64,000 nucleotides of DNA from Strigamia acuminata (Eukaryota; Arthropoda; Chilopoda; Geophilomorpha; Linotaeniidae), in NCBI GenBank assembly GCA_949358305.1, contig OX442321.1, forward strand, positions 5,605,605 through 5,669,604. Reading direction: 5' to 3'. The stretch's first letter is position 1, and the number at the start of each line of letters is the position of its first letter. The notes below the pieces were generated by a model, which was not told where the DNA came from, made no database searches, and saw only the letters and a list, made by a program, of their open reading frames with translations. The position numbers and the translations under genes are program-made. Positions 27,000 through 47,758 of the stretch are shown here, in pieces.

Positions 27000-29900
27000 A
27001 AGCATTTGCATATGGCACAAAAAAAAGACTTGTACTAAATTTCCAAATCTGGTGCCACAACTTCAAACCCCAATATCTCAACAACCTGACCACGGATTTT
27101 TTTATTTATAAAACCAAATGATATAGAGGACCTTCTCCTCTACAAACCCTAAAAGGCAGAACACTCTACCCCTCTTGGTTTTCGAGCGGCGACCGTTTGA
27201 ATTTGGTGCAACTGAAATTACAAAACCCAAATCTTCCATGTTTTCAGCGTTTCTGCGTTTCAGAGTTTTTGATTTCCGTGCTGGCTCCCCAGCGGGCTCC
27301 CCAGCGGGCTCCCCAGCGGGCTCCCCAGCGGGCTCCCCAGCGGGCTCCCCAGCGGGCTCCCCAGCGGGCTCCCCAGCGGGCTCCCCAGCGGGCTCCCCAG
27401 CGGGCTCCCCAGCGGGCTCCCCAGCGGGCTCCCCAGCGGGCTCCCCAGCGGGCTCCCCAGCGGGCTCCCCAGCGGGCTCCCCAGCGGGCTCCCCAGCGGG
27501 CTCCCCAGCGGGCTCCCCAGCGGGCTCCCCAGCGGGCTCCCCAGCGGGCTCCCCAGCGGGCTCCCCAGCGGGCTCCCCAGCGGGCTCCCCAGCGGGCTCC
27601 CCAGCGGGCTCCCCAGCGGGCTCCCCAGCGGGCTCCCCAGCGGGCTCCCCAGCGGGCTCCCCAGCGGGCTCCCCAGCGGGCTCCCCAGCGGGCTCCCCAG
27701 CGGGCTCCCCAGCGGGCTCCCCAGCGGGCTCCCCAGCGGGCTCCCCAGCGGGCTCCCCAGCGGGCTCCCCAGCGGGCTCCCCAGCGGGCTCCCCAGCGGG
27801 CTCCCCAGCGGGCTCCCCAGCGGGCTCCCCAGCGGGCTCCCCAGCGGGCTCCCCAGCGGGCTCCCCAGCGGGCTCCCCAGCGGGCTCCCCAGCGGGCTCC
27901 CCAGCGGGCTCCCCAGCGGGCTCCCCAGCGGGCTCCCCAGCGGGCTCCCCAGCGGGCTCCCCAGCGGGCTCCCCAGCGGGCTCCCCAGCGGGCTCCCCAG
28001 CGGGCTCCCCAGCGGGCTCCCCAGCGGGCTCCCCAGCGGGCTCCCCAGCGGGCTCCCCAGCGGGCTCCCCAGCGGGCTCCCCAGCGGGCTCCCCAGCGGG
28101 CTCCCCAGCGGGCTCCCCAGCGGGCTCCCCAGCGGGCTCCCCAGCGGGCTCCCCAGCGGGCTCCCCAGCGGGCTCCCCAGCGGGCTCCCCAGCGGGCTCC
28201 CCAGCGGGCTCCCCAGCGGGCTCCCCAGCGGGCTCCCCAGCGGGCTCCCCAGCGGGCTCCCCAGCGGGCTCCCCAGCGGGCTCCCCAGCGGGCTCCCCAG
28301 CGGGCTCCCCAGCGGGCTCCCCAGCGGGCTCCCCAGCGGGCTCCCCAGCGGGCTCCCCAGCGGGCTCCCCAGCGGGCTCCCCAGCGGGCTCCCCAGCGGG
28401 CTCCCCAGCGGGCTCCCCAGCGGGCTCCCCAGCGGGCTCCCCAGCGGGCTCCCCAGCGGGCTCCCCAGCGGGCTCCCCAGCGGGCTCCCCAGCGGGCTCC
28501 CCAGCGGGCTCCCCAGCGGGCTCCCCAGCGGGCTCCCCAGCGGGCTCCCCAGCGGGCTCCCCAGCGGGCTCCCCAGCGGGCTCCCCAGCGGGCTCCCCAG
28601 CGGGCTCCCCAGCGGGCTCCCCAGCGGGCTCCCCAGCGGGCTCCCCAGCGGGCTCCCCAGCGGGCTCCCCAGCGGGCTCCCCAGCGGGCTCCCCAGCGGG
28701 CTCCCCAGCGGGCTCCCCAGCGGGCTCCCCAGCGGGCTCCCCAGCGGGCTCCCCAGCGGGCTCCCCAGCGGGCTCCCCAGCGGGCTCCCCAGCGGGCTCC
28801 CCAGCGGGCTCCCCAGCGGGCTCCCCAGCGGGCTCCCCAGCGGGCTCCCCAGCGGGCTCCCCAGCGGGCTCCCCAGCGGGCTCCCCAGCGGGCTCCCCAG
28901 CGGGCTCCCCAGCGGGCTCCCCAGCGGGCTCCCCAGCGGGCTCCCCAGCGGGCTCCCCAGCGGGCTCCCCAGCGGGCTCCCCAGCGGGCTCCCCAGCGGG
29001 CTCCCCAGCGGGCTCCCCAGCGGGCTCCCCAGCGGGCTCCCCAGCGGGCTCCCCAGCGGGCTCCCCAGCGGGCTCCCCAGCGGGCTCCCCAGCGGGCTCC
29101 CCAGCGGGCTCCCCAGCGGGCTCCCCAGCGGGCTCCCCAGCGGGCTCCCCAGCGGGCTCCCCAGCGGGCTCCCCAGCGGGCTCCCCAGCGGGCTCCCCAG
29201 CGGGCTCCCCAGCGGGCTCCCCAGCGGGCTCCCCAGCGGGCTCCCCAGCGGGCTCCCCAGCGGGCTCCCCAGCGGGCTCCCCAGCGGGCTCCCCAGCGGG
29301 CTCCCCAGCGGGCTCCCCAGCGGGCTCCCCAGCGGGCTCCCCAGCGGGCTCCCCAGCGGGCTCCCCAGCGGGCTCCCCAGCGGGCTCCCCAGCGGGCTCC
29401 CCAGCGGGCTCCCCAGCGGGCTCCCCAGCGGGCTCCCCAGCGGGCTCCCCAGCGGGCTCCCCAGCGGGCTCCCCAGCGGGCTCCCCAGCGGGCTCCCCAG
29501 CGGGCTCCCCAGCGGGCTCCCCAGCGGGCTCCCCAGCGGGCTCCCCAGCGGGCTCCCCAGCGGGCTCCCCAGCGGGCTCCCCAGCGGGCTCCCCAGCGGG
29601 CTCCCCAGCGGGCTCCCCAGCGGGCTCCCCAGCGGGCTCCCCAGCGGGCTCCCCAGCGGGCTCCCCAGCGGGCTCCCCAGCGGGCTCCCCAGCGGGCTCC
29701 CCAGCGGGCTCCCCAGCGGGCTCCCCAGCGGGCTCCCCAGCGGGCTCCCCAGCGGGCTCCCCAGCGGGCTCCCCAGCGGGCTCCCCAGCGGGCTCCCCAG
29801 CGGGCTCCCCAGCGGGCTCCCCAGCGGGCTCCCCAGCGGGCTCCCCAGCGGGCTCCCCAGCGGGCTCCCCAGCGGGCTCCCCAGCGGGCTCCCCAGCGGG

Positions 29901-30335
29901 CTCCCCAGCGGGCTCCCCAGCGGGCTCCCCAGCGGGCTCCCCAGCGGGCTCCCCAGCGGGCTCCCCAGCGGGCTCCCCAGCGGGCTCCCCAGCGGGCACC
30001 CCAGCGGGCTCCCCAGCGGGCTCCCCAGCGGGCTCCCCAGCGGGCTCCCCAGCGGGCTCCCCAGCGGGCTCCCCAGCGGGCTCCCCAGCGGGCTCCCCAG
30101 CGGGCTCCCCAGCGGGCTCCCCAATGTTTAAGTGTCCGCCGCTCGAAAACTAAGAGGGGTAGAGTATTGTGCCTTTTAGGGTTTGTAGAGGAGAAGGTGC
30201 TCTACATCGTTTGGTTTTTTAAATAAAAAAACTGTGATCAGTTTGTTGAGATGTTGGCGTTTGAAGTTGTGGCACCAGATTTGGAAATTTAGTACAAGGC
30301 TTTTTTGTGCCATATTCAAATGCTTGCTGCTCGAA
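27000..30335. repeat. Inverted repeats flanking the 12-bp array
   Basis: About 200 bp at 27000-27200 (with ctggtgccacaacttcaaac and ccttctcctctacaaaccct) reappears as its reverse complement at 30130-30335 with roughly 90 % similarity by eye. A partial third copy lies at 30336-30400. The array of 12-bp units lies exactly between the two arms, so arms and array probably moved as one unit. Confidence 0.85.
27283..30122. repeat. 12-bp minisatellite, about 236 nearly identical copies
   Basis: A tandem array of ccagcgggctcc, about 2.84 kb, GC-rich in an AT-rich region. I saw a single variant unit (ggcacc for ggctcc, near 29998). The unit has no stop codon in any of the six frames, so frames of more than 950 codons run through on both strands (PAGS, APQR, AGEP, GSPL repeats). 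None of them shows an independent sign of being a gene. Confidence 0.97.
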
Positions 30336-30573
30336 AACTAAGAGGAGTAGAGACTTGTGCTGTTCACGGTTTGTTTAGGAGAAAGTCCTCTATCTTTTCG
30401 TGTAAAAACCATTGAAATACTTGGTAAAAAAAAAATTTGGATTTGTTCTATCTGTAGTTGAGGCAAATGTGAATGTGTTGCCAACTTCAGCCTGGTAAAT
30501 AAATTGTAGTCCTCCAGTATTATCTAATTATACATGACAAATAAATATTTTTGTTGAAAAATAGATTGACTAT

Positions 30574-31091
30574 TGTTACGAGGTTGACGAGCACACTGTG
30601 AACCAGTTGTCGCCACCTCGCTTCCGTAACTAAACGATTCGAATTAATGCTGTAAACCCTCACTAGAGTTCGCCTTAAGCGAATGATCTCACTAATTTAC
30701 CCATTAAGTAATAGTAGAATCACCCAAGTTTACTTGGCTGATGAGGAGAACTGAAACGTCAGTTCATTCCGAGCTTTCATTCCGAGAGGTTGTCGGGCAG
30801 GTACTGCCGCGGCATCTTGAGGTTCTTCACCCACCAAAGTTATTCATGCTTACTAGATTTAAGATAGTTTTATAAGATTTAGTTTTAAGTTAATCTTTGG
30901 TTCATTTCAGATTGTATTTATGATTTAATAAACATACAGTTATATTTTATTAATAATACAATGAGTCCTCTTTATTTCCTTCTTATTAGCAACACAGTTA
31001 AATGCTAGTTTAACTTAATGCAATTACAAACCCCCAGTTTAATAGTAAAGTATTTACGTGGTCAAACAGTAGTCAGTCTGGCCACGTAACA
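30574..31091 (+). repeat. 5' LTR of the Ulp1-bearing gypsy element
   Basis: 518 bp, starts tgttacgaggttgacgag and ends ggccacgtaaca. An AATAAA lies at about 30926. Same length and, by eye, same sequence as the 3' LTR. Confidence 0.95.
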
Positions 31092-32056
31092 AAGTGGTGG
31101 AGATTGCGGTTCTTTCTATTTGAGACCCATTAATTGGCTAAAAGTAGTGAAAAGTAGTAAAAGTAAAGTGAAATTGGCCAGTTATTTGCTAAAATTAGAA
31201 GATCCATTTGAAATCCGTACAAATTTGCATTAAAATTCAGTAAAATTCAAATAAAAGTCATATAAAATTTTGAAAAGTTGCAAACTCATTTGCATGAGTG
31301 ATAAGATTGAAAGGTGACTCATTGTGAAAACTTTCTTTTAGGGTCAATTGCAGTTGAATATTTAATTATAGTGCACTAATAAGATTTACATATTTGAATT
31401 TATTAAAGATATTTACTCAAGTTGAATTTATAATAAAATGAGGTTGTTTTGGAGGTTAAGAGTGGTGAATATTCAATGTTTGTTTAATGATAAAACTTAT
31501 ATTAATAATGATTCAATTATAGGAAATGTTTTCTTTTTGGTTTATGTAGAAGTTTATGTTGATTTTGATGATTAATTTTGATTATTTTTCAGGAAATAAT
31601 AATAATTTTTTTTTGTTATTGAAATTTATTTTGAATTAGTGACTAATTGTGATAATTAATTGTGCATAAGTTTATTTCAGGGTTAGTAAAAGTTGTGAGT
31701 TGTTAAGAGCGTTCTGTGAATAAAGTGAAGGTATAATTAAAGGCTTAACAGTGGATCAGCCAGTTAAGTTATCACAGGCGCAAGTGGATAATCTACTGGA
31801 CTTAAAGAATCAAGAATTAGAAAGAGAATTAGTAAGCACAGTGGATGATTCCAAAGTAGCGGTTAGAAAAAGGAAAACAACTTCACAGTCGGAACCTGGA
31901 ATAAAGGAGGTTGAGCAAAATACTTCCACATTGGATGATAAACTTGTTTTTGCAACCCCATTAAAATTTGCGCAATCAAAGTCTTTTCAATCAGTATTTG
32001 AATTGTTAACGCCAGTAAAATTAAAGGAATCCACATCAAAAGGAACTGTATCCAAG

Positions 32057-33100
32057 ATGGCGGATCCAACAACAGTTTTAACTGATCTTCTCAAGGGTAT
32101 TTTGATACAAAAGCGCGAAGTTGTTTGTTATGATACAGAAAAAGGTAACATCGACCAATGGCTTGTGGCTTATGAAGCTACAATAGCATCAGATGATGAA
32201 CGAGTGAAACAATTGCCGTTAGCCCTTAAGACTGACGGACTGGCATGGTTTGTGGAACAATATAAAACGAATCCAACCTGGACTTGGACAGAATGGAAGC
32301 CACAAATCGAAAAGAAGTTCAGGAAAAGCCAGGAAAATGTATTGAACACTCTTCATTTTATGAGGCATTCAGATGGTAAAGCCGATGCATTTATGAAGAA
32401 GGTCTTGGCCGAATGTGCTTATGCGCGACCAGAATTACCTGAGAATTTGAAGATTAATTATATTTTTCAAGGATTGAAGCCGGAAATGCAAAAGATGTTG
32501 ATTACTGTATTCCCGAAGACTTTGGCGGATATGGAAGAGAGAATTAAGTTATTCGAAAGTCATAAAGTAAAAGACCCAGCAGATGTTCTACTTGCAGCGT
32601 TTAAAAAAATCGTGGATGAGAAGGTGATCCCGGTAACAGCAGGTAAACTGAGTGGAACCGTGGGGACCCAACCAACCCACGCTGAGTTAATAGCTGAAGT
32701 CGCTGATTTAAAGCGGCGATTGTTAGAGGCAGAGTCAGTGGATTTGCTGGATGAAGAGTCGATACTGATACAAAATCAGTGGTATGCGCCAATAAGGAAT
32801 AGGGGACAGTATAATCAAGGAGGTAGAAGTAGAGGCAGTAGACAAGGCTTTAATCCTAATTACAATAATTATAATACTAACAATAGTAATGATTCTAATA
32901 ACCGTTCATGCGGATGTTATCATCATTTCAGCTGTGAGTTTTACAATCCACCCAGGCAACAACAACAACAGCAACAACAGCAACAGGAAAGAGGTGGAAG
33001 TAACAGCTGGAAGTGGAATAAAAAGAGGAGAAGAGGTGAACAGCAAGATGGAAACCCTAATCCTCAGGCACAAACGAAGGCCCAAAATTCGAAAAACTAG
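32057..33100 (+). CDS. gag: Gag polyprotein of the Ulp1-bearing gypsy element
   Basis: The frame is open from 31751 but its first ATG is at 32057 (aagATGGcg, a good context), giving about 347 residues starting MADPTTVLTDLLKG. Capsid-like segments include WTWTEWKPQIEKKF and FMKKVLAECAYARPELPENL, typical of Ty3/gypsy Gag. There is no CCHC knuckle; instead the C-terminus is rich in Asn, Arg and a poly-Gln run, with a lone C-G-C-YHH-FSC cluster. It ends AAA AAC TAG inside the start of the pol frame, which is open from 33061, so pol is probably made by a -1 frameshift near cgaaaaac (33091-33098). Confidence 0.88.
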   Translation: MADPTTVLTDLLKGILIQKREVVCYDTEKGNIDQWLVAYEATIASDDERVKQLPLALKTDGLAWFVEQYKTNPTWTWTEWKPQIEKKFRKSQENVLNTLHFMRHSDGKADAFMKKVLAECAYARPELPENLKINYIFQGLKPEMQKMLITVFPKTLADMEERIKLFESHKVKDPADVLLAAFKKIVDEKVIPVTAGKLSGTVGTQPTHAELIAEVADLKRRLLEAESVDLLDEESILIQNQWYAPIRNRGQYNQGGRSRGSRQGFNPNYNNYNTNNSNDSNNRSCGCYHHFSCEFYNPPRQQQQQQQQQQERGGSNSWKWNKKRRRGEQQDGNPNPQAQTKAQNSKN

Positions 33101-36100
33101 TTGAACGGCCACAGAGAAATTGTTGCCACCCAAAGAAAAGGAAAAGACAAAAGAAGAAGAGTAAGATAATTATAATTGACGTTCAGGTATCAGAATCATT
33201 GTTGGAGATCCCAGTAATTGTAAAAGAAATGGAAATAAAAGCGGTAATGGACACTGGAGCCAAACGAAACCTGCTAAGCGAAGAAGTTGCAATAGCTCTT
33301 CAATTGGATTATTCACCCAGCCCTAACATTAGGCTACGTGGGATAGGAAAGGATTTGGTAGTTCCAGTGGGTAAAACAAAAATGAACATTGCAATTGGAA
33401 AACTGACCTATAGAGTGGAAGTGTTAATAGTGTCAGGATTTCATCATCAGCTTTTATTGGGGGATCCATTCATGAGGTCAACGAGAACTGTCGTCGATTA
33501 TGATTTACAAAAAATCTTTGTGGGCCGGAACAATGATAGTGGAGTAGAAGAAGCAGTTTTTCCAATAAATAGATCATTTTCGGACCAGAGTTATGTTGCC
33601 AGAGTAATGAAGAATATCTCAATTCCACCAATGCATGAATGCGTTATACCAGTTTATTTAAATACAAAATTAACCACAGAAATGTTTATGGAACCTCTAG
33701 GAAATGTAATAGATAGGTTTGGAATTTTGTGTTGTAAAACATTAACAAATTTTGAGTATGGTAAAGGAGTTCTGCGTGTGGCTAATCCAACAAACAAATC
33801 AGTCTTTCTGAAGGAGAAATCTGCAATTGGTAAGGCGTACTACATTATTGAGATTGGGTTGTTGGATGAAAAGCAAGTGTATTGCACTGACTCCTCAACC
33901 AAAGCGGTTGAGTTGACAGATGAAAAGCAAGTGCATTGCTTTGACTTTGACTCCTCGATTGCTAAAGATAAGATGAACAAAAGCCAACAAGAGCAGATGA
34001 AGCAGTTACTTCAAAGGAATCAGGATAGATTTGCAGCCACAGACAAAGACTTAGGTAGAGTAACAACATTTAAACACAAAATTGATACGGGGGACCATGA
34101 TCCAATACATTTGCAGCCTTATAGACGTTCAATCGCAGAAAAAGAAGTAGAGGCAGAAGAGACCAGAAAGTTGCTTGAGATGGGAGTCATTAGGGAGTCA
34201 GAAAGTCCATGGAGTGCACCAGTACTTCTCATCAAGAAAAGAGACGGTAAATGGAGATTTTGTGTCGATTGGAGGAGGTTAAACGCGATCACAAAGAAAA
34301 TGGTATACCCACTGCCCAGAATTGACGATACATTGGACCAACTGGCAGGGGCCCAGTATTTTTCGATGATGGATCTTATTCAAGGATATTATCAAGTCGA
34401 AATAGATGAACAAGATCGTGAAAAAACAGCGTTTACCACTTCAAGCGGACATTTTGAGTTTAACGTCCTAGGAATGGGATTATGTAATAGCCCAGCTGCG
34501 TTTCAGAAATTGATGAACAAGGTGCTTGGTAATCTTCTTGGCAAGGTCTGTATAGCTTATATTGACGACCTTATAATCTTCTCGAAGACTTTTGACCAGC
34601 ATCTTCAGGATCTCGATGCTGTCTTCAGTAAGCTGCGGTTGGCAAACTTAAAGGTTAAACTTAGCAAATGTACGTTTGGTACTAATACCATCAAATATTT
34701 AGGCCACATAGTTGATTCTGATGGAGTGTCACCTGATCCACGTAATTTGGAAAGTGTAGCTAAATTTCCAAAACCAACAAATTTGAAGCAGTTGAGAGGG
34801 TTTTTGGGTTTATGTTCGTATTATCGAAAGTTTATTCCAGGATTTGCGGACGTATCTAAGCCCTTAGCCAACTTAACTCGCAAAGATGAAGCTTTTGATT
34901 GGGGACCACCACAGGAAACAGCGTTTAAGGCCTTACGGACAGCTTTAGTTACGGTACCAGTATTGGCACATCCAAATTTTGCAGAGCCATTCATTGTATC
35001 TACGGATGCAAGTGCTTATGGGCTTGGTGCAATTTTGAAGCAGCGTATTAACAAGCAAGAACATGTGATTTGTTACGCCAGTCGATTGTTAAGTACAGCG
35101 GAACAAAATTACACAGCTACGGAAAGAGAATGTTTAGCCATAATATTCGGCATTAACAAGTACAGACCATATCTTTACGGTAGGAAATTTACAATTGTGA
35201 CAGACCATTCTGCGTTACAATGGCTGAATAAGGTGAAAAATCCCAACGGTAGGTTGGCCAGGTGGAGTTTACAACTGGTAGATTACGACTACGATGTGAT
35301 GCATAAGTCAGGCAAGAAGCACACGGACGCAGATGCTCTTAGCCGAATCCAAGAAGAGATTGGTGAGGAAGAAAAAGAAATTGTTCCCTTACTACTTCTC
35401 GAAAAACTCAACTTACCTGTAGAACAGCGTAAGGACGAGAAAATTTTGGAGATCATCACCGCAATGGAGAACATTGAGCAACTTCCAAGAAACAGGAAAC
35501 GTCCTTTAAAACAGTTCGTTCTCCTGGATAACACGTTGTTTAGAAAGAAAAGTTACAATTCTCTAAACATGGAAGGAAACCTTTTAGTAGTACCGCAGCA
35601 TTTACGTAAGCAAGTGTTAGAAGAAATGCATGACGGGCTCGTAGGTGCTCATCTCGGCCTAAATAAGACGTGGAAAAGAATTAGAGTAAGATTCTTTTGG
35701 CCGAGGATATACAGGGACGTAAGGAATTACGTTCTCAGTTGTCCACATTGCGCAGGAAGTAAGTCAATGACCACTCCACAAAAAGGTTTATTACAACCTT
35801 GGTCGACGATTTCAAGACCGTTTGAGAGGATTGGTATAGACACGTTAGGAAGCTTTCCAGTTTCAAATAGTGGAAATAAATATGTTTTTGTTATCACTGA
35901 TTACTTGTCGCGTGCAGTCATCGCCAGAGCGGCTCCAGCATGTACAGCGTTGGAAGCAGCGAAAACTCTTGTATTCGAGGTGATGCTCAAAGAGGGAAGT
36001 CCACGCGAGATACTCAGCGATAAGGGGACAGAGTACAGGAACGAAATGATCAATGAAGTATCAGCACTGTTTAAATCCCAGCACAAATCTACTTCCGGGT

Positions 36101-37143
36101 ACCATCCAAGGACCAACGGATTAACGGAAAGATTTAATGCAACATTTGCCAAAATGTTGACATGTTATACTAATAAAGATCACACAGATTGGGATGAATT
36201 TTTACCATTTGTCATTTTCTCCTATAATTCAGCAGTCCATGAAACAACTGGATATACCCCATATTATTTGTTGAAAGGTTATGAAGTTGATTTGAGTGTG
36301 GATGTGAACTTGAATCTTCCTCGAAAGGAATTCACTCTTCGCACTTCTAGATTTATGCGGGAGATGCGGAAAATTGCCAACGAAAGACTAGAATGGCAGA
36401 GTGAGAAAAGCAAGAGAAGATTTGATTTGGACAGAATTGTGGTGGAATTCGAACCAGGGGAATTAGTTTACTTGAAAACTCCGAATAGGAAAGTAGGGTT
36501 AAGCGAAAAACTCCTGCCACCATTTTCTGGACCATATGAAATAGTTCGACGCACAGCGCCAAACGATTATGAAGTAAGGAATTCATCAGGAAAGAAAACT
36601 AGTATTGTCAATGTTGAGCGTTTAAAACCATATAAGCCGCGAGAGGAAATTCCAGAAACTATTCTGCAGGATCTACCATTGAAGAAAGTAACATTTTCTG
36701 ATGAAGTGCAAGGAAGTTCGCAAAAAGACGATCAAAATGCGGAAATTGTGAAGAAGGACGATGATCCGCGAGATAGGCCTAAAGTAGGAGCGAAGGAAAG
36801 GTTTATTGATGATGATGATCAAATTTCGTTGAGGAGTTTCTTTGAATCCGGAGATAAAACGTCGGATTCGCCGGTTCTAACTGAAAGGGAGCGATTGAAG
36901 GCAATTTACGGGCCGAAAGAAATTGAGGCACGTCGAGTGAAAAAGGAAGTTGAGTTAGAACAGCGAAATCAGTTGCTAAAATCGTCGCCAGACGAAAGCA
37001 AGAAGAATCGGTTGCAGAAACCATCACCAGGTGTCGCAAATGCTGTTGGCGCCGATACGCATGCGCGACGTCCTGCTGAAAGTGATTTCCGGTCACGACG
37101 ACTTAGATCGCAACCACGCCAAGATTACACTGCATTTTACTAG
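33061..37143 (+). CDS. pol: Pol polyprotein of the Ulp1-bearing gypsy element
   Basis: The frame lies -1 relative to gag and has no ATG near its beginning. Counting from Leu at 33199: retropepsin active site VMDTGAKRN (Asp about 18), reverse transcriptase with YIDDLIIF (Asp 456-457), RNase H with STDASAYGLGAIL (about 600), then a zinc-binding HHCC region ending CPHC, and integrase with Asp 881, Asp 941 and Glu 977, a D,D(35)E triad. The order PR-RT-RH-IN is that of Ty3/gypsy. The charged tail of about 150 residues after the integrase has no recognised chromodomain. All catalytic residues are present. Confidence 0.95.
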   Translation, partial: SSGTNEGPKFEKLVERPQRNCCHPKKRKRQKKKSKIIIIDVQVSESLLEIPVIVKEMEIKAVMDTGAKRNLLSEEVAIALQLDYSPSPNIRLRGIGKDLVVPVGKTKMNIAIGKLTYRVEVLIVSGFHHQLLLGDPFMRSTRTVVDYDLQKIFVGRNNDSGVEEAVFPINRSFSDQSYVARVMKNISIPPMHECVIPVYLNTKLTTEMFMEPLGNVIDRFGILCCKTLTNFEYGKGVLRVANPTNKSVFLKEKSAIGKAYYIIEIGLLDEKQVYCTDSSTKAVELTDEKQVHCFDFDSSIAKDKMNKSQQEQMKQLLQRNQDRFAATDKDLGRVTTFKHKIDTGDHDPIHLQPYRRSIAEKEVEAEETRKLLEMGVIRESESPWSAPVLLIKKRDGKWRFCVDWRRLNAITKKMVYPLPRIDDTLDQLAGAQYFSMMDLIQGYYQVEIDEQDREKTAFTTSSGHFEFNVLGMGLCNSPAAFQKLMNKVLGNLLGKVCIAYIDDLIIFSKTFDQHLQDLDAVFSKLRLANLKVKLSKCTFGTNTIKYLGHIVDSDGVSPDPRNLESVAKFPKPTNLKQLRGFLGLCSYYRKFIPGFADVSKPLANLTRKDEAFDWGPPQETAFKALRTALVTVPVLAHPNFAEPFIVSTDASAYGLGAILKQRINKQEHVICYASRLLSTAEQNYTATERECLAIIFGINKYRPYLYGRKFTIVTDHSALQWLNKVKNPNGRLARWSLQLVDYDYDVMHKSGKKHTDADALSRIQEEIGEEEKEIVPLLLLEKLNLPVEQRKDEKILEIITAMENIEQLPRNRKRPLKQFVLLDNTLFRKKSYNSLNMEGNLLVVPQHLRKQVLEEMHDGLVGAHLGLNKTWKRIRVRFFWPRIYRDVRNYVLSCPHCAGSKSMTTPQKGLLQPWSTISRPFERIGIDTLGSFPVSNSGNKYVFVITDYLSRAVIARAAPACTALEAAKTLVFEVMLKEGSPREILSDKGTEYRNEMINEVSALFKSQHKSTSGYHPRTNGLTERFNATFAKMLTCYTNKDHTDWDEFLPFVIFSYNSAVHETTGYTPYYLLKGYEVDLSVDVNLNLPRKEFTLRTSRFMREMRKIANERLEWQSEKSKRRFDLDRIVVEFEPGELVYLKTPNRKVGLSEKLLPPFSGPYEIVRRTAPNDYEVRNSSGKKTSIVNVERLKPYKPREEIPETILQDLPLKKVTFSDEVQGSSQKDDQNAEIVKKDDDPRDRPKVGAKERFIDDDDQISLRSFFESGDKTSDSPVLTERERLKAIYGPKEIEARRVKKEVELEQRNQLLKSSPDESKKNRLQKPSPGVANAVGADTHARRPAESDFRSRRLRSQPRQDYTAFY

Positions 37144-37705
37144 CTTTTCTTTAAGTGAACGCAAGTTATTTGCAGTGAGCGAAGGGAATTGTTATTCTCC
37201 GAGTGTGATTGACGAGGATTTCGCATATTTTCTGTGAAAGTAGGTACTTTTAATTGACGAAAGTTAATATGAACGCAGACGAGACGTGACACGATTTTGA
37301 AGTTGTATTTTCTTGTTTTTTGAGGCGAACGCAAGTTATTTGCAGTGAACCAAGAATAACTCGAATTTACTAGTTGATTTGAACAATTTTGAGACATTTT
37401 TCTCCAGTTTTGGATAATATTAATAAAAGTGCCGAAAGTGAACAGAACGGAACGAATCTATCGCCATTTTTCCAGCGAATAAAGAGAACTTCGCACATTT
37501 TTGAAATGTTAACTTGACATTTAATTTTGAAATTTAATAGAAATAGCTATGAATATTTAATTGGTTTAGATGAAATAATTTGAATATTGTATAAAGTTAA
37601 AAGTTTAACGAAATTTAGACAAATTGATTGTGAACATGAATTGTATTGGCCATTAATCAATTGTAATTAATGAATTTAATTTATTTTTGCACATATTAGA
37701 CTTGA

Positions 37706-39067
37706 ATGGACGATATGACGGGAAAATTTAGTCGGATGGACGTAAAAGACAGCTCAGACGAAGACGACAATATTTCCGTGTGTTCGGGAGTTTCGACCCA
37801 GATGTTTGACTTATATGACAGGCAGTCGGAGTTGGAACACTTGGATGTCTTGGCTGAGGAGGAAGACATTGCAACTGTTCCCATTAAACCGTTGTCCGAA
37901 CTGGTAACATTTAAGCGACCATTCTCCGAACGTAAAGAACTCGGTGCGCGGCCGAAAGTTTATGACAAGCCCTTGACGCCGAAACAACTTAGCAAGATTG
38001 AGCGCCGAAAACGCTGTGAGCAAAGGAGAAGAATGGCGGATACAGCGGAAAAGCGCGCATTCACGAAAAAGGGACTTCAAGTCATCAAGAAGCAGGCTGA
38101 GAAGACAGTAACCCGAAATGAGAAGCGTCTTGGAGAACTTAGAGTCGAGCAGCGCTGTATGACCGAGGAAGTGAGGAAAAAAGGTCTGAAAGGCCTTGAT
38201 GGACGGTTGGTTTTTGAAGCATGGTTTCGTGCGGCAGATAAATTGCTTCAGTATGAGGCCAAGATCAGACGCAATATCCAGCGTGCGAAAGCGCTCGGGC
38301 GGCGCGAGTATAAAGAAGACCCTTGTGTAATTTTGCCAAAACAACTGATACTCTATCGCGTTCGTTTACAAGGAGATCAACAGATGGAGGCGTTGGAAGC
38401 AACGGTAGCTTTTAGTTATCGACCAAAGCATGAAACAGCGATTACTATGTCAGATGACCCGTCCATAATTATAACCAATAGGGAAATGGCGTCTCTTGGA
38501 CACCTTGCGCCAGGTGAAAGGGCTTGGGTTCATCCAAGTGTGATTGATCATTATTTGCGAATGCTCGCAAAATTTAATGAACGAGTATGGGCAGTCAGAG
38601 TCGACTTTGTCGAAATGATACTAGACGCCGAGCGGTTTCCAGAAGCATGGAGATGGATGAAGAAAACCCATGACCATTATGGGAAGTCAATTTGGATTTT
38701 TCCTATACCGGAAATCGATCACTGGCAATTGTTTGTGGTCGATTGGACCAAATTTCCAACACAGGTAACGCTCTACGATCCGAGTGGGGTTCTGACTTTC
38801 AGTTGCCCTGCTTGGGAGCGAGTGCATAATTGTATTGTCGGGGCTGGAATGGTTTTTCCACGGGGCTATGAGAAGTGGGACCCGCCCCGTATGCAACAGC
38901 TTGACGGCGACAGCTGCGGGCCCACTATCTTATATTTTGCCCGCCGATATATTGAAGACAGGGACAACATGCGCCATGGCCATCCGATCGATTTGCGCCA
39001 GCGAATAGTGTACGAGATCTTACACGAGAAGTTGATCCCATTCGAAAAGGAGGAAAACCAGCCTTAA
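37706..39067 (+). CDS. ORF3: Ulp1/SENP-like (C48) cysteine protease carried by an LTR retrotransposon
   Basis: 453 residues from an ATG at 37706. The N-terminal half is acidic, then very basic (KLSKIERRKRCEQRRRM type) and probably partly coiled coil. The C-terminal half has features of the Ulp1 SUMO-protease fold: WVHPSVIDHYLRML, IWIFPIPEIDHWQLFVVDW with the catalytic His 339, VTLYDPSG with Asp 358, and MQQLDGDSCGPTILYFARR with Gln 398 six residues before Cys 404, the Ulp1 spacing. It sits in the position of env but has no signal peptide or membrane segment. A splice acceptor-like stretch (tgcacatattag) lies just before the ATG. Predicted activity is removal of SUMO or a related modifier; the true substrate is unknown. 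Confidence 0.85.
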   Translation: MDDMTGKFSRMDVKDSSDEDDNISVCSGVSTQMFDLYDRQSELEHLDVLAEEEDIATVPIKPLSELVTFKRPFSERKELGARPKVYDKPLTPKQLSKIERRKRCEQRRRMADTAEKRAFTKKGLQVIKKQAEKTVTRNEKRLGELRVEQRCMTEEVRKKGLKGLDGRLVFEAWFRAADKLLQYEAKIRRNIQRAKALGRREYKEDPCVILPKQLILYRVRLQGDQQMEALEATVAFSYRPKHETAITMSDDPSIIITNREMASLGHLAPGERAWVHPSVIDHYLRMLAKFNERVWAVRVDFVEMILDAERFPEAWRWMKKTHDHYGKSIWIFPIPEIDHWQLFVVDWTKFPTQVTLYDPSGVLTFSCPAWERVHNCIVGAGMVFPRGYEKWDPPRMQQLDGDSCGPTILYFARRYIEDRDNMRHGHPIDLRQRIVYEILHEKLIPFEKEENQP

Positions 39068-39540
39068 TCGGACATTAAGAGTTGTGTGAAATTATTTTTT
39101 TTGTGTATTATTTATTTTGTATTATTCGTCAATGATGTGAGCCCAGGTGTACTGGAGCGAGCAGAGACATTATTTTTTTTATTATTTGAAGTTGATATTG
39201 TTTTTCTTAATTTTGTTATTGTTTTCATTTTCATTCACATTGAATGTAGTGTATATTATTTTTTTTGAATTATTAGGTTGTATAGAAAATAGGAAAACTG
39301 AAAAAAAAAAGTAATATAAGTGTAAAAATATCAAAAAGTGTTAATCTTGAAAGTGTATTTGTGTAATAATTGACATATGATTTTGAATTTTTGTAATTTG
39401 AAATTGTTTTTAGTAAATATTGTTTAAAGTATAAGTTTTGTGAAAGTAAGCATGAATAACAGGGAATGAACTCATATATAAGCATGAACAACAAGGGAGT
39501 TTGTTTAGTTAAATAACTTGTTTTTGGGGTCCAAAAATCT

Positions 39541-39552
39541 AAAGGAGGGGGC
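39541..39552 (+). promoter_or_regulatory. Polypurine tract of the Ulp1-bearing gypsy element
   Basis: aaaggagggggc directly precedes the 3' LTR start; it would prime plus-strand DNA synthesis. Confidence 0.85.
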
Positions 39553-40070
39553 TGTTACGAGGTTGACGAGCACACTGTGAACCAGTTGTCGCCACCTCGC
39601 TTCCGTAACTAAACGATTCGAATTAATGCTGTAAACCCTCACTAGAGTTCGCCTTAAGCGAATGATCTCACTAATTTACCCATTAAGTAATAGTAGAATC
39701 ACCCAAGTTTACTTGGCTGATGAGGAGAACTGAAACGTCAGTTCATTCCGAGCTTTCATTCCGAGAGGTTGTCGGGCAGGTACTGCCGCGGCATCTTGAG
39801 GTTCTTCACCCACCAAAGTTATTCATGCTTACTAGATTTAAGATAGTTTTATAAGATTTAGTTTTAAGTTAATCTTTGGTTCATTTCAGATTGTATTTAT
39901 GATTTAATAAACATACAGTTATATTTTATTAATAATACAATGAGTCCTCTTTATTTCCTTCTTATTAGCAACACAGTTAAATGCTAGTTTAACTTAATGC
40001 AATTACAAACCCCCAGTTTAATAGTAAAGTATTTACGTGGTCAAACAGTAGTCAGTCTGGCCACGTAACA
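39553..40070 (+). repeat. 3' LTR of the Ulp1-bearing gypsy element
   Basis: 518 bp, same boundaries as the 5' LTR; followed by the target duplication CTAT. Confidence 0.95.
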
Positions 40071-40401
40071 CTATCCAGAACCGGTACCAATACCGGTACC
40101 AGTACCACTTTCGGTAGTTTCATTCGGGACCGGAACCGAATATAGTACCGGAAAAAAATTTTAGTACCGAATACCGGTACCATGAAAACCGTCCGGTACT
40201 GCAATCCCTATCTGACACGTTTTTCATCTCCATTTCAGATTAAATAGGTTTTTACTCGCGGGCAATAAATTCGGATACGTTTATTCATATTCACAGTTCA
40301 GTTTCAAACCGGTTTTGCACGAAGGCATGAAGGTAAAAATTGTAAATTTAATCAGGTGACTATAAGTACTTGTTAGTACTTGTTTTATTAGGTGAACCGA
40401 T

Positions 40402-40689
40402 GGGTTTACTTTAGAATATGGCCCGCTTCAGAATGGGCCCAAAATTTGGTTACTTACCAAATAAAGCCTCCTGGGTCCGAATGACACTCAAAAGTGTCGG
40501 AAATGAACCTAACCTTAACCTAAGGTTAACCTGGCCTAGTCAATCCTTAACCTAACAGTGGCTAGGCTAACCTAAGGTTAGGTTAAGGATAGGCTAGGCT
40601 AACTTAAGGTTAGGTTAAGGATCGGCTAGGCCAGGTTAAGTTACGTTAGGTTCATTTCCGACATTTTTATGTGTCATTTTCGGACTCGG
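40402..40689. mobile_element. Palindromic MITE with CCTAA-rich core, copy 1
   Basis: Starts gggtttactttagaatatgg, passes through gtgtcggaaatgaacctaac into a core of alternating ccttaacctaa and aggttaggtta blocks, and returns as the inverse. The right end is cut short at cggactcgg. Related copies are at 42059-42252, 43448-43641 (inverted), about 45440-45598 (inverted) and one split by the second LTR element (45590-45626 plus 60527-60657). Confidence 0.75.
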
Positions 40690-40800
40690 TAAATTCGGAT
40701 GGAGATTTTGTGAATTTGTAGTGAAGTTTCAACAACTTTAGCATGATAAGCGATAAATTCAGATACACTTTTTTGACTGGTACGGATATTACGTACCACT

Positions 40801-42055
40801 TTGTCTCCCAAGTTCGTTATTGCTTTAAATGCAGTTAATGATCAACAACAATGTAAATAAAGAGTAATTGTTATGTTTTAACGCCAGGTTTTCTTAGTTT
40901 GTTACACATAACCTTCATAATCGGTTACAATAATTGATTTTCTTAACACCACAATGCCCCCACAAGTGAAAACAAAGATTATTACTGGAAATCGATTTGC
41001 TATGGACGTGCAGAGTTACTGTGAAAATGTTGAGAATAATAAATCGACTACATGTACGAAAGCAAGTTGGAGGGCTGATGTGGTCATTAAAAAAGGGATA
41101 AGATTTGGGCCTTTTCCAGGCAAAGTCTGTATTTACTGTTTGATAATTTTTAACAGTTCAACTTGTCAACTTGTTTTCCTAGGATGCAATGGATGTAGAA
41201 GATTCCGAATGGATGTTTATAATAGCAGAAGTTGATGAATTAAAAGATGCTAATTTACTCCCTACTCTAAGAAACAAGAACGTGTATTTTGAAGCAATTA
41301 GGGACATTGCTGTTGGTGAACCTCTCTTAGTATACCTTACTCCTGAACAAGTGATGGCAAAGGATGAGCCAAGAAAAGAAAGTACATATGTTTGTCCTCC
41401 ATAGCTTGTCAACCAAGTTTTAAATAATGCATTTGCAATTTTTCTTAGCTTGTGTAAAGACTGTGGACATCTGATTTATTTAGCATACTAAAACCGAATA
41501 GAAAATTAGAACGCAATAACGTTCAGAAGAGAAAATTATTTTCGTAAAAAAATTTGACAAATGTAAGAAATGAAAGAAATTTTCTGGAATTGTTATTTGA
41601 TTTTATAATAAAGATTTTATCAGGGGGTACGACATTCAACCGAATCTCTGACATGGGCTTTCGAATCCCGTACCGGATCCCCGAATCCCAAATCTTTACA
41701 TTTTATAAGAATTTTGAATTTTTTGTCGGTAATTAGACAAAAGTTAAAATATTTTCGATTTTTTTATTAAAATAATCATCTAAATCAACCAAATCCCATC
41801 CGAATCCTATGAAAGATTCGAATCTCTGACACGCAGATTCTGATTGACGTAACCTCTGTGATGGGCAGTATTCATTACAGTATTGTTTCGATCTGTTGTC
41901 TCTAGATGGCAGAAGCGACCAGAGACAGCTTGCGGTAGGAAAACAGTGGCGCCATCTATGTATCCAAGTTGCTATTAATTAGGAGTTACAATTTATATTT
42001 GGTGATTATGCTTTGAAAAAAACCCAAATTATCGCCCATGAAAAGAATGCAACAC
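40801..42055 (+). repeat. Left arm of a 1.25-kb inverted repeat
   Basis: From ttgtctcccaagttcgtt to gaaaagaatgca, this arm matches the reverse complement of 44181-45436 with a few per cent of differences by eye. It contains a complete PR/SET gene and its flanks. The 2.1-kb spacer between the arms consists of MITEs and GATAAATTCGG repeats that are themselves partly inverted. Confidence 0.9.
40954..41404 (+). CDS. Small PR/SET-domain protein, copy 1
   Basis: Two exons, 40954-41124 and 41183-41404, joined by a 58-nt intron (aaa|gtctgt ... ttttcctag|gat), give 130 residues. The sequence KKGIRFGPFPGK, a region with SEWMFIIAEVDE, ANLLPTLRNKNVYFEAIRDI and VGEPLLVYLTPEQV match the PR subtype of SET domains found in PRDM proteins (GxRFGPF ... 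W ... NL ... IYY ... I ... GEELLVWY). No zinc fingers follow. PRDM proteins are histone methyltransferases or DNA-binding repressors; this protein is a bare and short PR domain, so activity is uncertain. Another nearly identical copy lies inverted at 44830-45280, and both frames and splice sites are intact. Confidence 0.75.
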
Positions 42056-42058
42056 GTT

Positions 42059-42252
42059 GGGTTTACTTTAGAATATGGCCCGCTTCAGAATGAGCCCAAA
42101 ATTTGGTTACTTACCAAATAAAGCCCCCTGAGTCCGAAAATGACACTCAAAAGTGTCTGAAATGAACCTAACCTTAACCTAAGGCTAACCTGGCCTAGCC
42201 TATCCTTAACCTAACCTAAGGTTAGGTTAAGAAGTGTCATTTTCGGACTCGG
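42059..42252. mobile_element. Palindromic MITE with CCTAA-rich core, copy 2
   Basis: Same left end and core as the copy at 40402 (gggtttactttagaatatgg, then cctaaccttaacctaaggct), ending at cggactcggt. Confidence 0.75.
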
Positions 42253-43130
42253 TAAATTCGGATGTGTTTTGTGGATTTGCAGTGAAGTTCCAACAAGTTT
42301 AGCACGGCAGGCGATAAATTCGAATTTATTTATTGGTTTTGCTGTTTATTTGTTTCTGCAAGTTTAGCACGGAGGCGATAAATTCGGATGGATTTTGTGA
42401 ATTTGTAGTGAAGTTTCAATAAGTTTAGCATGATCAGCAATAAATTCCGATACATTTATTGTTTTTGCTGTTTACTTTCTACAGGCTTTGCACCGTGGCG
42501 ATAAATTCGTAAGTGTTTTATGGATGTGCAGTGAAGTTTCAACCAGTTTTACACCCTGGGCCGATATATTCGAATGCCTTTTTTGGTTTGCAGAGGAGTT
42601 TCAACATTAACGGTAGGCGTTAAATTCGGATGCGTTTTGTTGATTTGCAGTGAATTTCAACAAGTTTATTACAATGGGCGATACGTTTTGATGCATTTTT
42701 GAACTCACGGTTTATATTCAAACATATTATGAATGTGTACAATAAATTCGAATACGTTTATTGAATCTAAAGTGGAGTTTTTAGCTTATTTTACTCGTGT
42801 GCGATGATTTCGGATACGTTTTGTGAATTTGCAGTTGAGTTTCAACAAGTTTTGCACTCGGGTCATAAATTCGGATACGGTTTTTGGATTTTCACTTGTT
42901 TTTACAAGTTTTTTGAACACGTTTTGTCGGACTCATAGTTTAGTTCTAAACATAGGTTTCGTGCGTGGGAAATAAATTCTTATTTGTTATTTTGGATCTC
43001 TATTTCAGATTCAATCGGTTTTCACGAGGGCATTAAATTCGGACACGTATTTTGGACTCACAGGTTAGATTCAAACAAATTTTGAATGGGGACAATAAAT
43101 TCGAATTCGTTTTTGGGATCTACAGTGTTG
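42253..43130 (+). repeat. GATAAATTCGG satellite-like repeat, block 2
   Basis: About a dozen imperfect units of the same 70-80-bp repeat as at 26.1-26.7 kb, in the spacer of the large inverted repeat. No coding function; short open frames are incidental. Confidence 0.8.
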
Positions 43131-43259
43131 ATTACGTAGATTTTGTTAGCGATACAGAGTGTACTTTTCAGAGCGCAACCGAATGCAACTGGGGTACAAA
43201 TTGCGGCCGTTCCCCATACCGATGTGATAGTTGCAAGCGGTGGTACGGAATATCCGTAC

Positions 43260-44180
43260 CGGTCAATATTTATCGCCACGGTGCAAAACTTGTAGAAAGT
43301 AAACAGCAAAACCAATAAATGTATCGGAATTTATTGCTGATCACGCTAAACTTGTTGAAACTTCACTACAAATTCACAAAATCCATCCGAATTTATCATC
43401 TACTGTACAAAACTTCACTGCAAATCCACAAAACACATCTGAATTTACCGAGTTTAAAAATGACACTTCTTAACCTAACCTTAGGTTAGGTTAAGGATAG
43501 GCTAGGCCAGGTTAGCCTTAGGTTAAGGTTAGGTTCATTTCCGACACTTTTGAGTGTCATTTTCGGACTCAGGAAGCTTTATTTGGTAAGTAACCAAACT
43601 TTGGGCCCATTCTGAAGCGGGCCATATTCTAAAGTAAACCCTCGGATTTATTTATTTATTTATTTTATTTATTGAAACTACACAGCAAAACCAATAAACG
43701 TATCCGAATTTATTGAAACTACACAGCATAAAATGCATCCGAATTTATCGCCCACCATTCAAAACTAGCTTCAATCCTTACAATAAATCTAAAAAAGCAT
43801 TTGAATTCATCGCCTATCGTGCTAAACTTGATAGAACTTACTGCAAATTCACAAAACACATCCTAATTTATCGCCTACAGTGCTAAACTTGTTTGAACTT
43901 CACTGCAAATCCACAAAACACATCCGAATTTATCGGATATGGATATTTATTTATTTATTTATTTTATTATTGAAACTACACAGCAAAACCAATAAACGCA
44001 TCCGAATTTATCGCACACGATCAAAACTAGCTTCAATCCGTACAATAAATCCAAAAAAGCATCCGAATTTATCGCTCACCGTGCAAAATTAGCTCAAATT
44101 CCACTGTAGATTCAGTAGACGTATCCGAAATTATCGTCCACCGTGGAAAACATGTTGAAACTGAACGGTGAGTAAACGTA
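43260..44180 (-). repeat. GATAAATTCGG satellite-like repeat, block 3 (inverted)
   Basis: The same repeat in the opposite direction (aaacacatccgaatttatcg), with an inverted copy of the MITE at 43448-43641 in its middle. Together with block 2 this makes the spacer of the palindrome a rough inverted repeat. Confidence 0.8.
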
Positions 44181-45436
44181 TTGCATTCTTTTTATGGGCG
44201 ATAATTTGGGTTTTTTTCAAAGCATAATCACCAAATATAAATTATAACTCCTAATTAATAGCAACTTGGATACATAGATGGCGCCATTGTTTTACTACCG
44301 CAAGCTGTCTCTGGTCGCTGCTGCCATCTAGAGACAACTGACCGAAAATATACTGTAATGAATACCGCCCATCAAAAGGGTTACGACAATCAGAATCTGC
44401 GTGTCAGAGATTCGAATCTTTCATAGGATTCGGATGGGATTTGATTGATTTAGATGATTATTTTAATAAAAAAGTCGAAAATATTTTAACTTTTGTCTAA
44501 TTACCACAAAAAAATTCAAAACTCTTATAAAATGTAAAGATTTGGGATTCGGGGATTCGGTACGAAATTCGAAAGCCCATGTCAGAGATTCGGTTGAATG
44601 TCGTACCCCCTGATAAAATCTTTATTATAAAATCAAATAACAATTCCAGAAAATTTCTTTCATTTCTTACATTTGACACATTTTTTTACGAAAATAATTT
44701 TCTCTTCTGAACGTTATTGCGTTCTATTTTTCTATTCGGTTTCAGAAATGCTAAATAAATCAGATGTCCACCGTCTTTACACAAGCTAAGAAAAATTGCA
44801 AATGCATTATTTAAAACTTGGTTGACAAGCTATGGAGGACAAACATATGTACTTTCTTTTCTTGGCCCATCCTTTGCCATCACTTGTTCAGGAGTAAGGT
44901 ATACTAAGAGAGGTTCACCAACAGCAATGTCTTTAATTGCTTCAAAATACACGTTCTTGTTTCTTAGAGTAGGGAGTAAATTAGCATCTTTTAATTCATC
45001 AACTTCTGCTATTATAAACATCCATTCGGAATCTTCTACATCCATTGCATCCTAGGAAAACAAGTTGACAAGTTGAACTGTTAAAAATTATCAAACAGTA
45101 AATACAGACTTCGCCTGGAAAAGGCCCAAATTTTATCCCTTTTTTAATGACCACATCAGCCCTCCAACTTGCTTTCGTACATGTAGTAGATTGATTATTC
45201 TCAACATTTTTACTGTAACTCTGCACGTCCATAGCAAATCGATTTCCAGTAATAATCTTTGTTTTCACTTGTGGGGCCATTGTGGTGTCAAGAAAATCAA
45301 TTATTGTAACCGATTATGAAGGTTATGTGTAACAAACTAAGAAAACCTGGCGTTAAAACATAACAATTACTCTTTATTTACATTGTTGATGATCATTAAA
45401 CTGCATTTAAAGCAATAACGAACTTGAGAGACAAAG
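44181..45436 (-). repeat. Right arm of the 1.25-kb inverted repeat
   Basis: Reverse complement of 40801-42055 with scattered substitutions; it carries the second PR/SET gene. Confidence 0.9.
44830..45280 (-). CDS. Small PR/SET-domain protein, copy 2
   Basis: Exons 45110-45280 and 44830-45051, same structure as copy 1, 130 residues. By comparing translations, about nine residues differ (for example Pro2 to Ala, Glu24 to Lys near SYSKNVENN, Lys57 to Glu at the exon end, Glu to Gly near the C-terminus). The frame, donor, acceptor and stop are all intact, which suggests either recent duplication, gene conversion between the arms, or selection on both. Confidence 0.75.
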
Positions 45437-45518
45437 CCTATCATTAACCTAGGCCAGGTTAACTTTAGGTTAAGGTTAGGTTCATTTCCGACATTTTTAA
45501 GTGTCATTTTCGGACTCG

Positions 45519-45536
45519 GGGGGGGGGGGGGGGGTT
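45519..45536 (+). repeat. Poly-G tract
   Basis: About 15-18 consecutive G within an inverted MITE copy; a related copy after the second LTR element has another G run at about 60583-60596. Confidence 0.9.
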
Positions 45537-45626: not shown

Positions 45627-47758
45627 TGTGACGGAATAAAATTAGGCATGAATATATAATTAGTATAATATGAAGGAATAACTAAGGGGTAAAGTTAGGC
45701 TGTACTGCAATGGCAATTGCAGTAAGGCGGGAAAGGAATCTCTTGAGTGACGTGAGTCACTTGAGAGGTAAAGGGGGTCGCTGGCAAGTGACCACAAATA
45801 ATCTAGAGGCTAGACAGGTATAAAACAGTGAGATAACATAAATAAATGGAGAATAAATATCTGACTTCGTGAAATATGCGACATATAAATTGATAGATGA
45901 ATGTAGTTAACTATGAATAATATTGAGCCAACACAAGTGTGTAAACTATAATAAAGCTAATTTATTAGCGAGTCCAAATGATCATTAAACCATAATCCAA
46001 AATACATACATATATACAAATACACAAGCGCTATAAACAAGGCCTCCAATAATCATTGGGGTAATACAAAGACATATCAAAAGGTAAATACGCTGACAAA
46101 ACTAGAGCATTGGGAGGCATGAGGAATTCATGGCCCAAGGCAAAAGGGGGACTTGAACAGGAGTGAAAGAGAAGCGCTCTTTTAATTACGCTGAAACTGT
46201 AGTTTAAGGGGATTAAAAGGGGACATTTAAAATGGCGGCTCAATCGAGGCTTTGATTGCAATTCGGTTCGGTGTGGCTTTAATAACGATGTCGTCACAAA
46301 TAATGCATTGACTTTGAAGAAAGCCAATGCTGCCTAAAACTTAATTGTTCAATTAAAGCAAGATCTAAAACAAGAGTGTAAACTCTTGATTAAGCGGTTT
46401 GGTGGGTGAAAGACCCAAGAGTTGGCTATGAGAATGGCAACATGTCATTGAATAGGCCTAACCAAGAGTAGAGCAGTTCTGCTAAACCAGAGGTTCACAT
46501 TGACTGGATACATCATTTAATGGCTAGGTTCTTGGCTAACAAGTGCAAGGGGTTTGTGAGCGAGTGCTCGAGACAGAGAAAGACAACTACACATATTTAG
46601 GTGTAACTCAGATTGCTCTGAGTTCAAATGTCTATGCGTAACAACTTTCAGGAGAAGGCTGACTAGCGCATTTAGGACTAAGCATAAATGCAAAGTAATG
46701 CTACGCCATTGAGAACCATAGCAAAGGTAAGGGAAGTTACTATTAAATTAATAGCAAGTTCTTATAGCAAGTAGAAGGATTGATTGACTAACAATGGACA
46801 ACAAAAGGACTAAGCCGAACTAATAAATCTCCCTCAACTTAGCAACAATTGACCACTTCAATGGGAATCCACTGAAGTAATTCTAATTACCAATTTGAGA
46901 GCAATAAATGAAATAAGGCTTACCAGTACTTTGATTCCGCGGTCCAGGGTCATTGAATCCAGTGTCAAAAGGGTTGTGGAATTTTGGCGGGAAAATCCAC
47001 CAACAAAGCCAGGGCGGCAAAGTTGGAGTAGAGGCAACAAAACCTATCTTTTCTCCTTCATCTTCACCTCCATTGCCATCCTACTTCCCCCAGCTGTCAA
47101 CTGCAGGAAGTTTTACATCTCAACCCAGTAATCGAATACCAAATAGGCTCGGATGTTGCTCGTAGGGCAACCAACTAAAGCGAGATAGTGCGTCAAAACC
47201 TTGACGCACAACATAAGTCAAAACCAAAGGCAAGAACAAAATGTGTAAAGTCAAAATATATGGGCAAAATCTCTGTAGGAAGCTTTGAACAAAGCTTATA
47301 TAGACAAACCAAACAATACCTCATTGGAATGGAACCAATGGGGTAAATAGACCAATGACAAATGAGAGCTATCTCATTAGTATGAAGCGGGAAAGCTTCA
47401 CAAAGCAAATACCTCATTAGAATGTAAACAAGGAGGAGTGCATAAGGGGTCAAGAGTTCTCTTGGCCTTTGTAAGGTCACTCTCTCTAATGTTTAGAAAC
47501 AACACAAGGGGAAGTAAACAACATAGTCGCTCAGTCTTGGCTTCACTGTATAGTGACTCATCCAAGATGGCGACTGGTGCAATAACACACTATAAACTGT
47601 AAGAAAATGCTTATGGCCGTGAGCCAGTGGCTCACTTATAGCGCCTAGGACTCATATAATATAAAAGTAAATTAAAGAATTCAACTTAAAACCTTGAATT
47701 AAATATAAATAGTTTTATTTATCTTTAACCAAAACTACGGTATTTTGGTACCGTCACA
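45627..47758 (-). repeat. 3' LTR of the 14.9-kb element
   Basis: 2,132 bp, apparently identical with the other LTR. Long for a gypsy element. Small open frames in it recur in the other LTR simply because the sequence is duplicated. Confidence 0.95.

Follow-up and report, generated by a model that had tools for sequence, protein, structure and literature searches.

A conserved C48 protease-like gene in the env position of a recently inserted Ty3/gypsy element of Strigamia acuminata

We describe a Ty3/gypsy retrotransposon of Strigamia acuminata in which the position of env is taken by a conserved third open reading frame (ORF3) encoding a predicted C48 (SENP/Ulp1-type) cysteine protease. The element lies in the window, the 64,000-nucleotide stretch of DNA that was analysed, and ORF3 occupies 37706..39067 on its forward strand, running from ATG to stop over 453 codons (453 aa). 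A frame of 453 codons is not expected by chance, since the longest open run in 300 simulated 9.5-kb sequences of the element's composition was 235 codons. A sequence-only reading of the window had proposed a Ulp1-like protease in the env position of a young element, with His 339, Asp 358, Gln 398 and Cys 404 and the Q-x5-C spacing in an intact frame; the residues are as it gave them, and both the protease relationship and the youth of the element are borne out by the evidence below.

ORF3 shows a significant sequence relationship to peptidase family C48 across the catalytic domain (residues 248-444; 38447..39037, forward strand), in a phmmer comparison with SENP1 (E 1.3e-8) as well as with a family profile. 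Up to E 1, the 17 distinct PDB sequences matched by this profile, which was built from 25 ORF3 copies, are without exception C48 proteases, including SENP1 (1.3e-11), SENP5 (9.4e-8), SENP2 (1.5e-6), SENP3 (2.5e-5), yeast Ulp1 (5.3e-5) and XopD (5e-4). The pairwise alignment of ORF3 with SENP1 has 32% identity. Catalysis by SENP1 relies on a His, an Asp, a Gln and a Cys, and the four residues of ORF3 stand in the C48 order and align with these counterparts. Conservation was assessed in an alignment of 46 rows, namely the window and 45 loci; as L004 among these is the copy in the window itself, 45 copies are represented. His339-Trp340 (38720..38725), Asp358 (38777..38779), Gln398 (38897..38899; the oxyanion-hole position by alignment) and Cys404 (38915..38917; the nucleophile by alignment), all on the forward strand, are present in 46/46 rows, and Gly405 is likewise invariant (46/46). 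Trp274 (38525..38527, forward strand), which aligns with the Trp of SENP1 'NWLND', is found in 45 of the 46 rows, with one gap. At the position of the SENP1 'WLND' Asp, the window ORF3 has Pro (residue 277); 13 of 25 aligned copies, all of the L049, L057 and L066 groups, have Asp, and the other 12 have Thr, Ser, Ala, Pro or a gap.

The Pfam model PF02902 scored 14.4 bits on the window ORF3, under its 20.7-bit cut-off, and matched 3 of 25 ORF3 members at E 0.01; the C48 domain would therefore be missed by routine annotation. A Ulp1 fold may be expected from the sequence relationship; a single-sequence AF2 model of the catalytic half had a pLDDT of 39.8, and its fold search named no SUMO protease. 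The N-terminal half is acidic at its start and then basic, and the N-terminal 240 residues gave no match in Pfam, PHROGs or NCBIfam at the thresholds used. ORF3 has a GC3 of 0.50 against 0.36-0.38 in gag and pol, and codon-usage correlation does not single out its frame (0.42 for the true frame, 0.49 for another).

The surrounding element, at 30574-40070, is a complete Ty3/gypsy element with LTRs, target-site duplication, purine tract, gag-like frame and pol. Its 518-bp LTRs (5' LTR, 30574..31091, TGTTACG...CGTAACA; 3' LTR, 39553..40070; both on the forward strand) are identical over 518/518 positions, and CTAT stands on both sides (30570..30573 and 40071..40074). The TG...CA ends together with a 4-bp duplication are those of Ty3/gypsy LTRs, and the identical LTRs mark the element as a recent insertion. 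A candidate primer-binding site region (31092..31109, forward strand) lies directly 3' of the 5' LTR, a stretch that also follows the LTR end in L100, and a polypurine tract (39541..39552, forward strand) lies directly 5' of the 3' LTR. ORF1 (provisionally 31751..33100, forward strand, frame open from 31724) is assigned as gag-like by its position and its Gln/Arg-rich tail, and had no Pfam match. Pol (33199..37143, forward strand, frame open from 33061; a 1360-aa open frame in the genome search) comprises protease, RT, RNase H and integrase (Asp_protease_2 1.5e-7, RVT_1 7.9e-37, RT_RNaseH 6.1e-38, Integrase_H2C2 2.6e-21), and by Pfam positions their order, PR-RT-RNaseH-IN, is that expected of Ty3/gypsy. 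It has 1001 relatives in the protein database; every organism named among the best 120 of the 1001 is an arthropod (pseudoscorpion, spiders, tick, Daphnia), and among the matches listed the closest full-length relative is 47% identical over 86% of pol.

Between pol and ORF3 lies a non-coding spacer (37144..37705, forward strand, GC 0.30) in which a T-rich AG (37698-37699) is a candidate 3' splice site, with an exon that would begin at 37700. Splice-site scoring supports it weakly, this acceptor ranking 24th of the 727 AGs in the element under a matrix of consensus values; several subfamilies have a T-rich AG 5-8 bases upstream of the ORF3 ATG, a pattern that, by eye, the L057 and L066 groups lack. 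The spacer also holds an imperfect 39-bp repeat (37146-37184 and 37316-37354), which is found in L109 too and in part in L110. The window contains further repetitive structures: a 12-bp satellite array of almost 3 kb at about 27200-30130, with several frames open on both strands; a large inverted-repeat structure directly behind the ORF3 element (40398-45523), whose main arms are 95-98% complementary; and a second, apparently complete gypsy-like element on the reverse strand (45627-60526), flanked by AAGT at either end, whose LTRs of about 2.13 kb are identical and whose third ORF (530 codons, 48234-49826) has no Pfam or PDB match and no strongly hydrophobic segment.

The sequence-only reading had named the presence of ORF3 in this single copy only as a ground for its refutation; ORF3 is in fact multi-copy. 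A search of the 237.5-Mb genome (157 contigs) returned at least 95 ORF3 matches, down to 39% identity (450 candidates, 93 scored), all copy counts being lower bounds, as the searches score the best candidates only. We read 48 ORF3 loci, 8 returned by the search and 40 picked from the list, mostly intact-looking; 45 have an ATG-to-stop frame of at least 399 codons, and three were set aside. Identity to the window ORF3 is 92-100% within its own family and 39-55% in other subfamilies, and a 17-row tree, which carries a long-branch warning, places the window family beside several well-separated groups, six or seven. In 43 of the 48 loci ORF3 is preceded by the end of pol; no pol end was found at L043, L058, L065 or the short L078, and L070 has no recorded result. 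At L058 the 1.2 kb upstream of ORF3 hold a gag-like frame but no pol match, and this is perhaps a copy that deleted pol and kept ORF3; L065 is an ORF3 fragment with a 415-codon open frame beside sequence that by eye is P450-like. Among ten own-family copies checked, six recent insertions (L003, L005, L006, L009, L010 and L064) show 99.6-100% identity between their two LTRs, over the part compared, and 4-bp ATAT duplications; L008 and L063 have no 5' LTR in the piece read, L060 and L062 have a partial one, and LTRs of a second subfamily were compared over 73 bp only. Among 5.8 billion proteins, neither the full ORF3 (E 1e-3) nor its catalytic part (E 10) had a relative outside this genome. Viral contigs gave no relative with ORF3, pol, a pol alignment or a SENP1 plus ORF3 alignment as query, and a motif pattern search gave two viral loci, L001 and L002.

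The ratio of dN to dS across copies, which the sequence-only reading had named as a check, also agrees with a functional gene. In nine of 11 own-family comparisons with the window ORF3 it is 0.03-0.08, with dS up to 0.64, the other two being identical; listed pairs in other subfamilies have 0.07-0.15, except L041/L042, where a small number of changes gives 0.39 overall (1.4 for the N-terminal half). Of the 16 comparisons listed, 7 have saturated dS and so give no ratio. Judged by these ratios, ORF3 is under strong purifying selection, its protein having been kept functional over long times. The history of ORF3 appears tied to that of the integrase. Between subfamilies ORF3 is 39-50% identical, compared with 78-85% for the integrase C-terminus, and the two sets of distances correlate at 0.92 (0 of 2000 permutations) over 29 of the 46 rows, 17 of the 45 loci having been dropped for an absent, short or interrupted integrase piece; as near-identical copies are among the 29 rows, the permutation result looks stronger than the evidence is. 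Since ORF3 and integrase distances run together, a common ancestor probably carried ORF3, consistent with a single acquisition and faster ORF3 evolution thereafter. A recent capture of the host SENP1 is not supported: ORF3 is not closely related to the single SENP1-like exon found in the host, on a piece of which its profile scores 9 bits and SENP1 itself 105 bits, and the same profile scores 43.6 bits on another C48 locus, L036. A single-copy or decayed capture is ruled out by the 95 matches, the invariant residues and dN/dS.

Many copies of the same family lack the gene. The pol search scored 35 copies of 7021 candidates, 29 of them with a full frame without a stop. Within the 3.5 kb downstream of pol, a same-strand match to ORF3 is present in 13 of the 35 (three of these broken or fragmented) and absent in 22, of which 19 have a full uninterrupted pol frame; the test used 25 of the 95 ORF3 rows, those of at least 83% identity and three others, and an ORF3 displaced by an inserted element would count as absent. 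The view of ORF3 as a kept part of this family is supported, the catalytic residues being invariant in the 45 intact copies read, and is qualified by these 22 copies. Fourteen elements are listed with both LTRs, five with ORF3 (LTR spacing 8451-8986) and nine without (7296-7839). In seven of the nine, both LTRs score equally against the window LTR, which suggests recent insertion. The stretch from pol to the LTR, read in four of the nine, reveals three different deletions: one common to L109 and L112, from about 37594 to 39087, one in L110 (about 37709-38844) and one in L111 (about 37711-38948), the latter two keeping an end piece of ORF3 that the genome search does not list. Separate losses are the probable explanation, but one deletion might in principle be an enlargement of another. 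Given so many same-family copies without it, ORF3 is apparently dispensable in cis for transposition, and any gain from it must be modest, shared or conditional.

With SENP1, SENP2 and Ulp1, ORF3 shares the His-Trp, Asp, Gln and Cys positions and the 'NWLND' Trp, and nearly the whole SENP1 catalytic domain is aligned; unlike them, it is encoded by a retrotransposon and has an N-terminal half without a known domain. Among mobile elements, Ulp1 domains are reported in Ginger1, Mutator, Crypton and NeSL/Utopia (PMC2836005, PMC13317346, PMC3212892, PMC4640811), in line with the earlier remark that such domains are known from some DNA transposons but not as a standard part of Ty3/gypsy elements, with the addition that non-LTR retrotransposons carry them too. 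Among the papers searched, by title, opening lines of the abstract and selected passages, none described an LTR retrotransposon with a Ulp1/C48 gene. Ginger1 likewise has a Ulp1 domain downstream of a gypsy-type integrase, but the accessible description gives it terminal inverted repeats, mentions no RT and makes Ulp1 the C-terminus of the transposase (PMC2836005), whereas the present element has LTRs, a full pol with RT and a Ulp1-type protease in a separate ORF; we accordingly reject identity with Ginger1, as terminal inverted repeats without RT contrast with the LTRs and RT found here. NeSL/Utopia elements are also retrotransposons with a Ulp1-like protease, but are described as non-LTR elements in which it is the N-terminal domain of the RT protein (PMC4640811). 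Cryptons can have a C48 peptidase as an additional protein, but are tyrosine-recombinase DNA elements, those bearing C48 being mainly oomycete (PMC3212892). The KIU/VANC proteins of plant MULEs are Ulp1-bearing accessory proteins, with action on the own family reported for KIU, but belong to DNA transposons of plants and have another partner domain (PMC13317346); for ORF3 the action in trans is our proposal. Bdelloid LTR retrotransposons have an enzyme gene, also an ORF3, in the env position, which is a GDSL esterase or DEDDy exonuclease (PMC5408684), compared with the C48 protease of the window element.

PF02902 matches 29 places in the genome, of which at least one, L011, looks like a host SENP and others look like mobile elements. 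A C48 frame of 1075 codons occurs at six places with equal scores (L016-L021) and shows, by eye, a SWIM-like Cys/His motif as in Mutator-like elements; another, at L023/L024, has 1828 codons. Of the further C48 loci retrieved, the ORF3 profile matches L036 (L036:265-2082; G000:C1:50728761) best; this frame of 605 codons combines an mRNA capping-enzyme domain with a C48 domain and has what, by eye, is a Cys-rich tail. A second gypsy lineage (L039:1279-3265 and L108:220-2115; G000:C1 around 11631459-11635414), whose RT region is 34% identical to that of the window element, has a C48+PHD frame directly behind its integrase, with nine genome matches of which only its own covers the whole query; the domain pair is known from one Ginger1 transposon. 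Because of this second lineage, C48 domains have probably joined gypsy-type elements in this genome more than once.

Kept by selection and apparently unneeded in cis, ORF3 behaves like a trans-acting product, and its catalytic set points to SUMO removal. The reading we favour, at a little short of an even chance, is that the conserved ORF3 is a trans-acting SENP/Ulp1-type protease that strips SUMO from host silencing proteins, so that copies of the family stay transcribed. From the C48 domain onward we infer every step, including the substrate and the role in silencing. ORF3 would be expressed from its own, probably spliced, RNA; its protein may work in the nucleus by means of the basic stretch in its N-terminal half and would cleave SUMO at its Gly-Gly end, and this deSUMOylation would affect silencing of the piRNA or heterochromatin type. 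The product would be shared among copies, and copies lacking ORF3 would use it at no cost. The counter-silencing part draws on Panx/SUMO data and the KIU precedent. In Drosophila cells, repression by Panx requires SUMO, and a SUMO fusion that host deSUMOylases can cleave gave limited rescue of repression, compared with the wild-type level for an uncleavable one (PMC13195609); Su(var)2-10, a SUMO ligase, belongs to Piwi silencing (PMC7272611). The KIU genes of plant MULEs, VANC genes that include a Ulp1 domain, bring about hypomethylation within their own family and lift its silencing, the contribution of Ulp1 there being not known (PMC13317346). No host SUMO gene was recognised among the 23 Rad60-SLD matches, of which four places were read (three ubiquitin-like, one SLD-like exon). 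Single ubiquitin-like frames that end in LRLRGGD and have similar flanks are dispersed in the genome (L104, L105 and L106, and G000:C5:11682418), possibly spread by a mobile element.

ORF3 could instead guard the element's own integrase or Gag, or repair factors, as a deSUMOylase or deubiquitylase, or aid integration or repair, without a part in silencing. Ginger1 transposases have Ulp1 and OTU domains for which such a role has been suggested (PMC2836005), and here the tie of ORF3 to the integrase through family history would suit it, as would, weakly, the Psi-K-x-[DE] motifs of gag (two) and pol (two). ORF3-less copies with intact pol and equal-scoring LTRs indicate that help in cis is unneeded, although help in trans would be compatible, and we consider this role rather unlikely but still of some weight. 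C48 enzymes include proteases of other modifiers, and the 32% identity to SENP1 and the replaced 'WLND' Asp of the window copy leave room for a protease of ubiquitin or NEDD8 that counters degradation or immune signalling. Its best profile matches are nevertheless SUMO proteases (SENP1, 5, 2, 3 and Ulp1) and both aligned Trp positions are retained, which makes another modifier an unlikely target.

The adenoviral protease belongs to the same fold class as C48, and two GG pairs near the end of Gag (residues 357 and 415) might be read as sites for an adenain-type enzyme cutting Gag or core proteins during particle maturation. We regard this as improbable, as pol retains an aspartic protease domain of its own, DTG motif included, ORF3-less copies have spread and the nearest matches of ORF3 are SUMO proteases. 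An envelope or exit protein would fit the location behind pol with a candidate splice acceptor, but we reject the comparison with env-bearing gypsy elements and errantiviruses: ORF3 has C48 homology and no strongly hydrophobic segment (highest 19-residue Kyte-Doolittle mean 0.69), and such a function is very improbable. Least of all do we expect a host gene captured by chance and carried along without function; the three different deletions and a GC3 above that of gag and pol would be in keeping with it, but dN/dS of 0.03-0.08 and catalytic residues invariant in subfamilies down to 39% identity speak strongly against it.

We know of no LTR retrotransposon with a SUMO-protease-like gene of its own. 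In the broader picture, to which we give an appreciable chance, though one clearly below even, an animal LTR retrotransposon would have replaced env by a SUMO protease that disarms silencing in trans, its product being a public good and the ORF3-deleted copies cheaters. If ORF3 works as predicted, it would represent a direct enzymatic counter-defence against SUMO-dependent silencing, and since copies with and without ORF3 occur in one genome, its cost, its benefit and its action in trans would be measurable.
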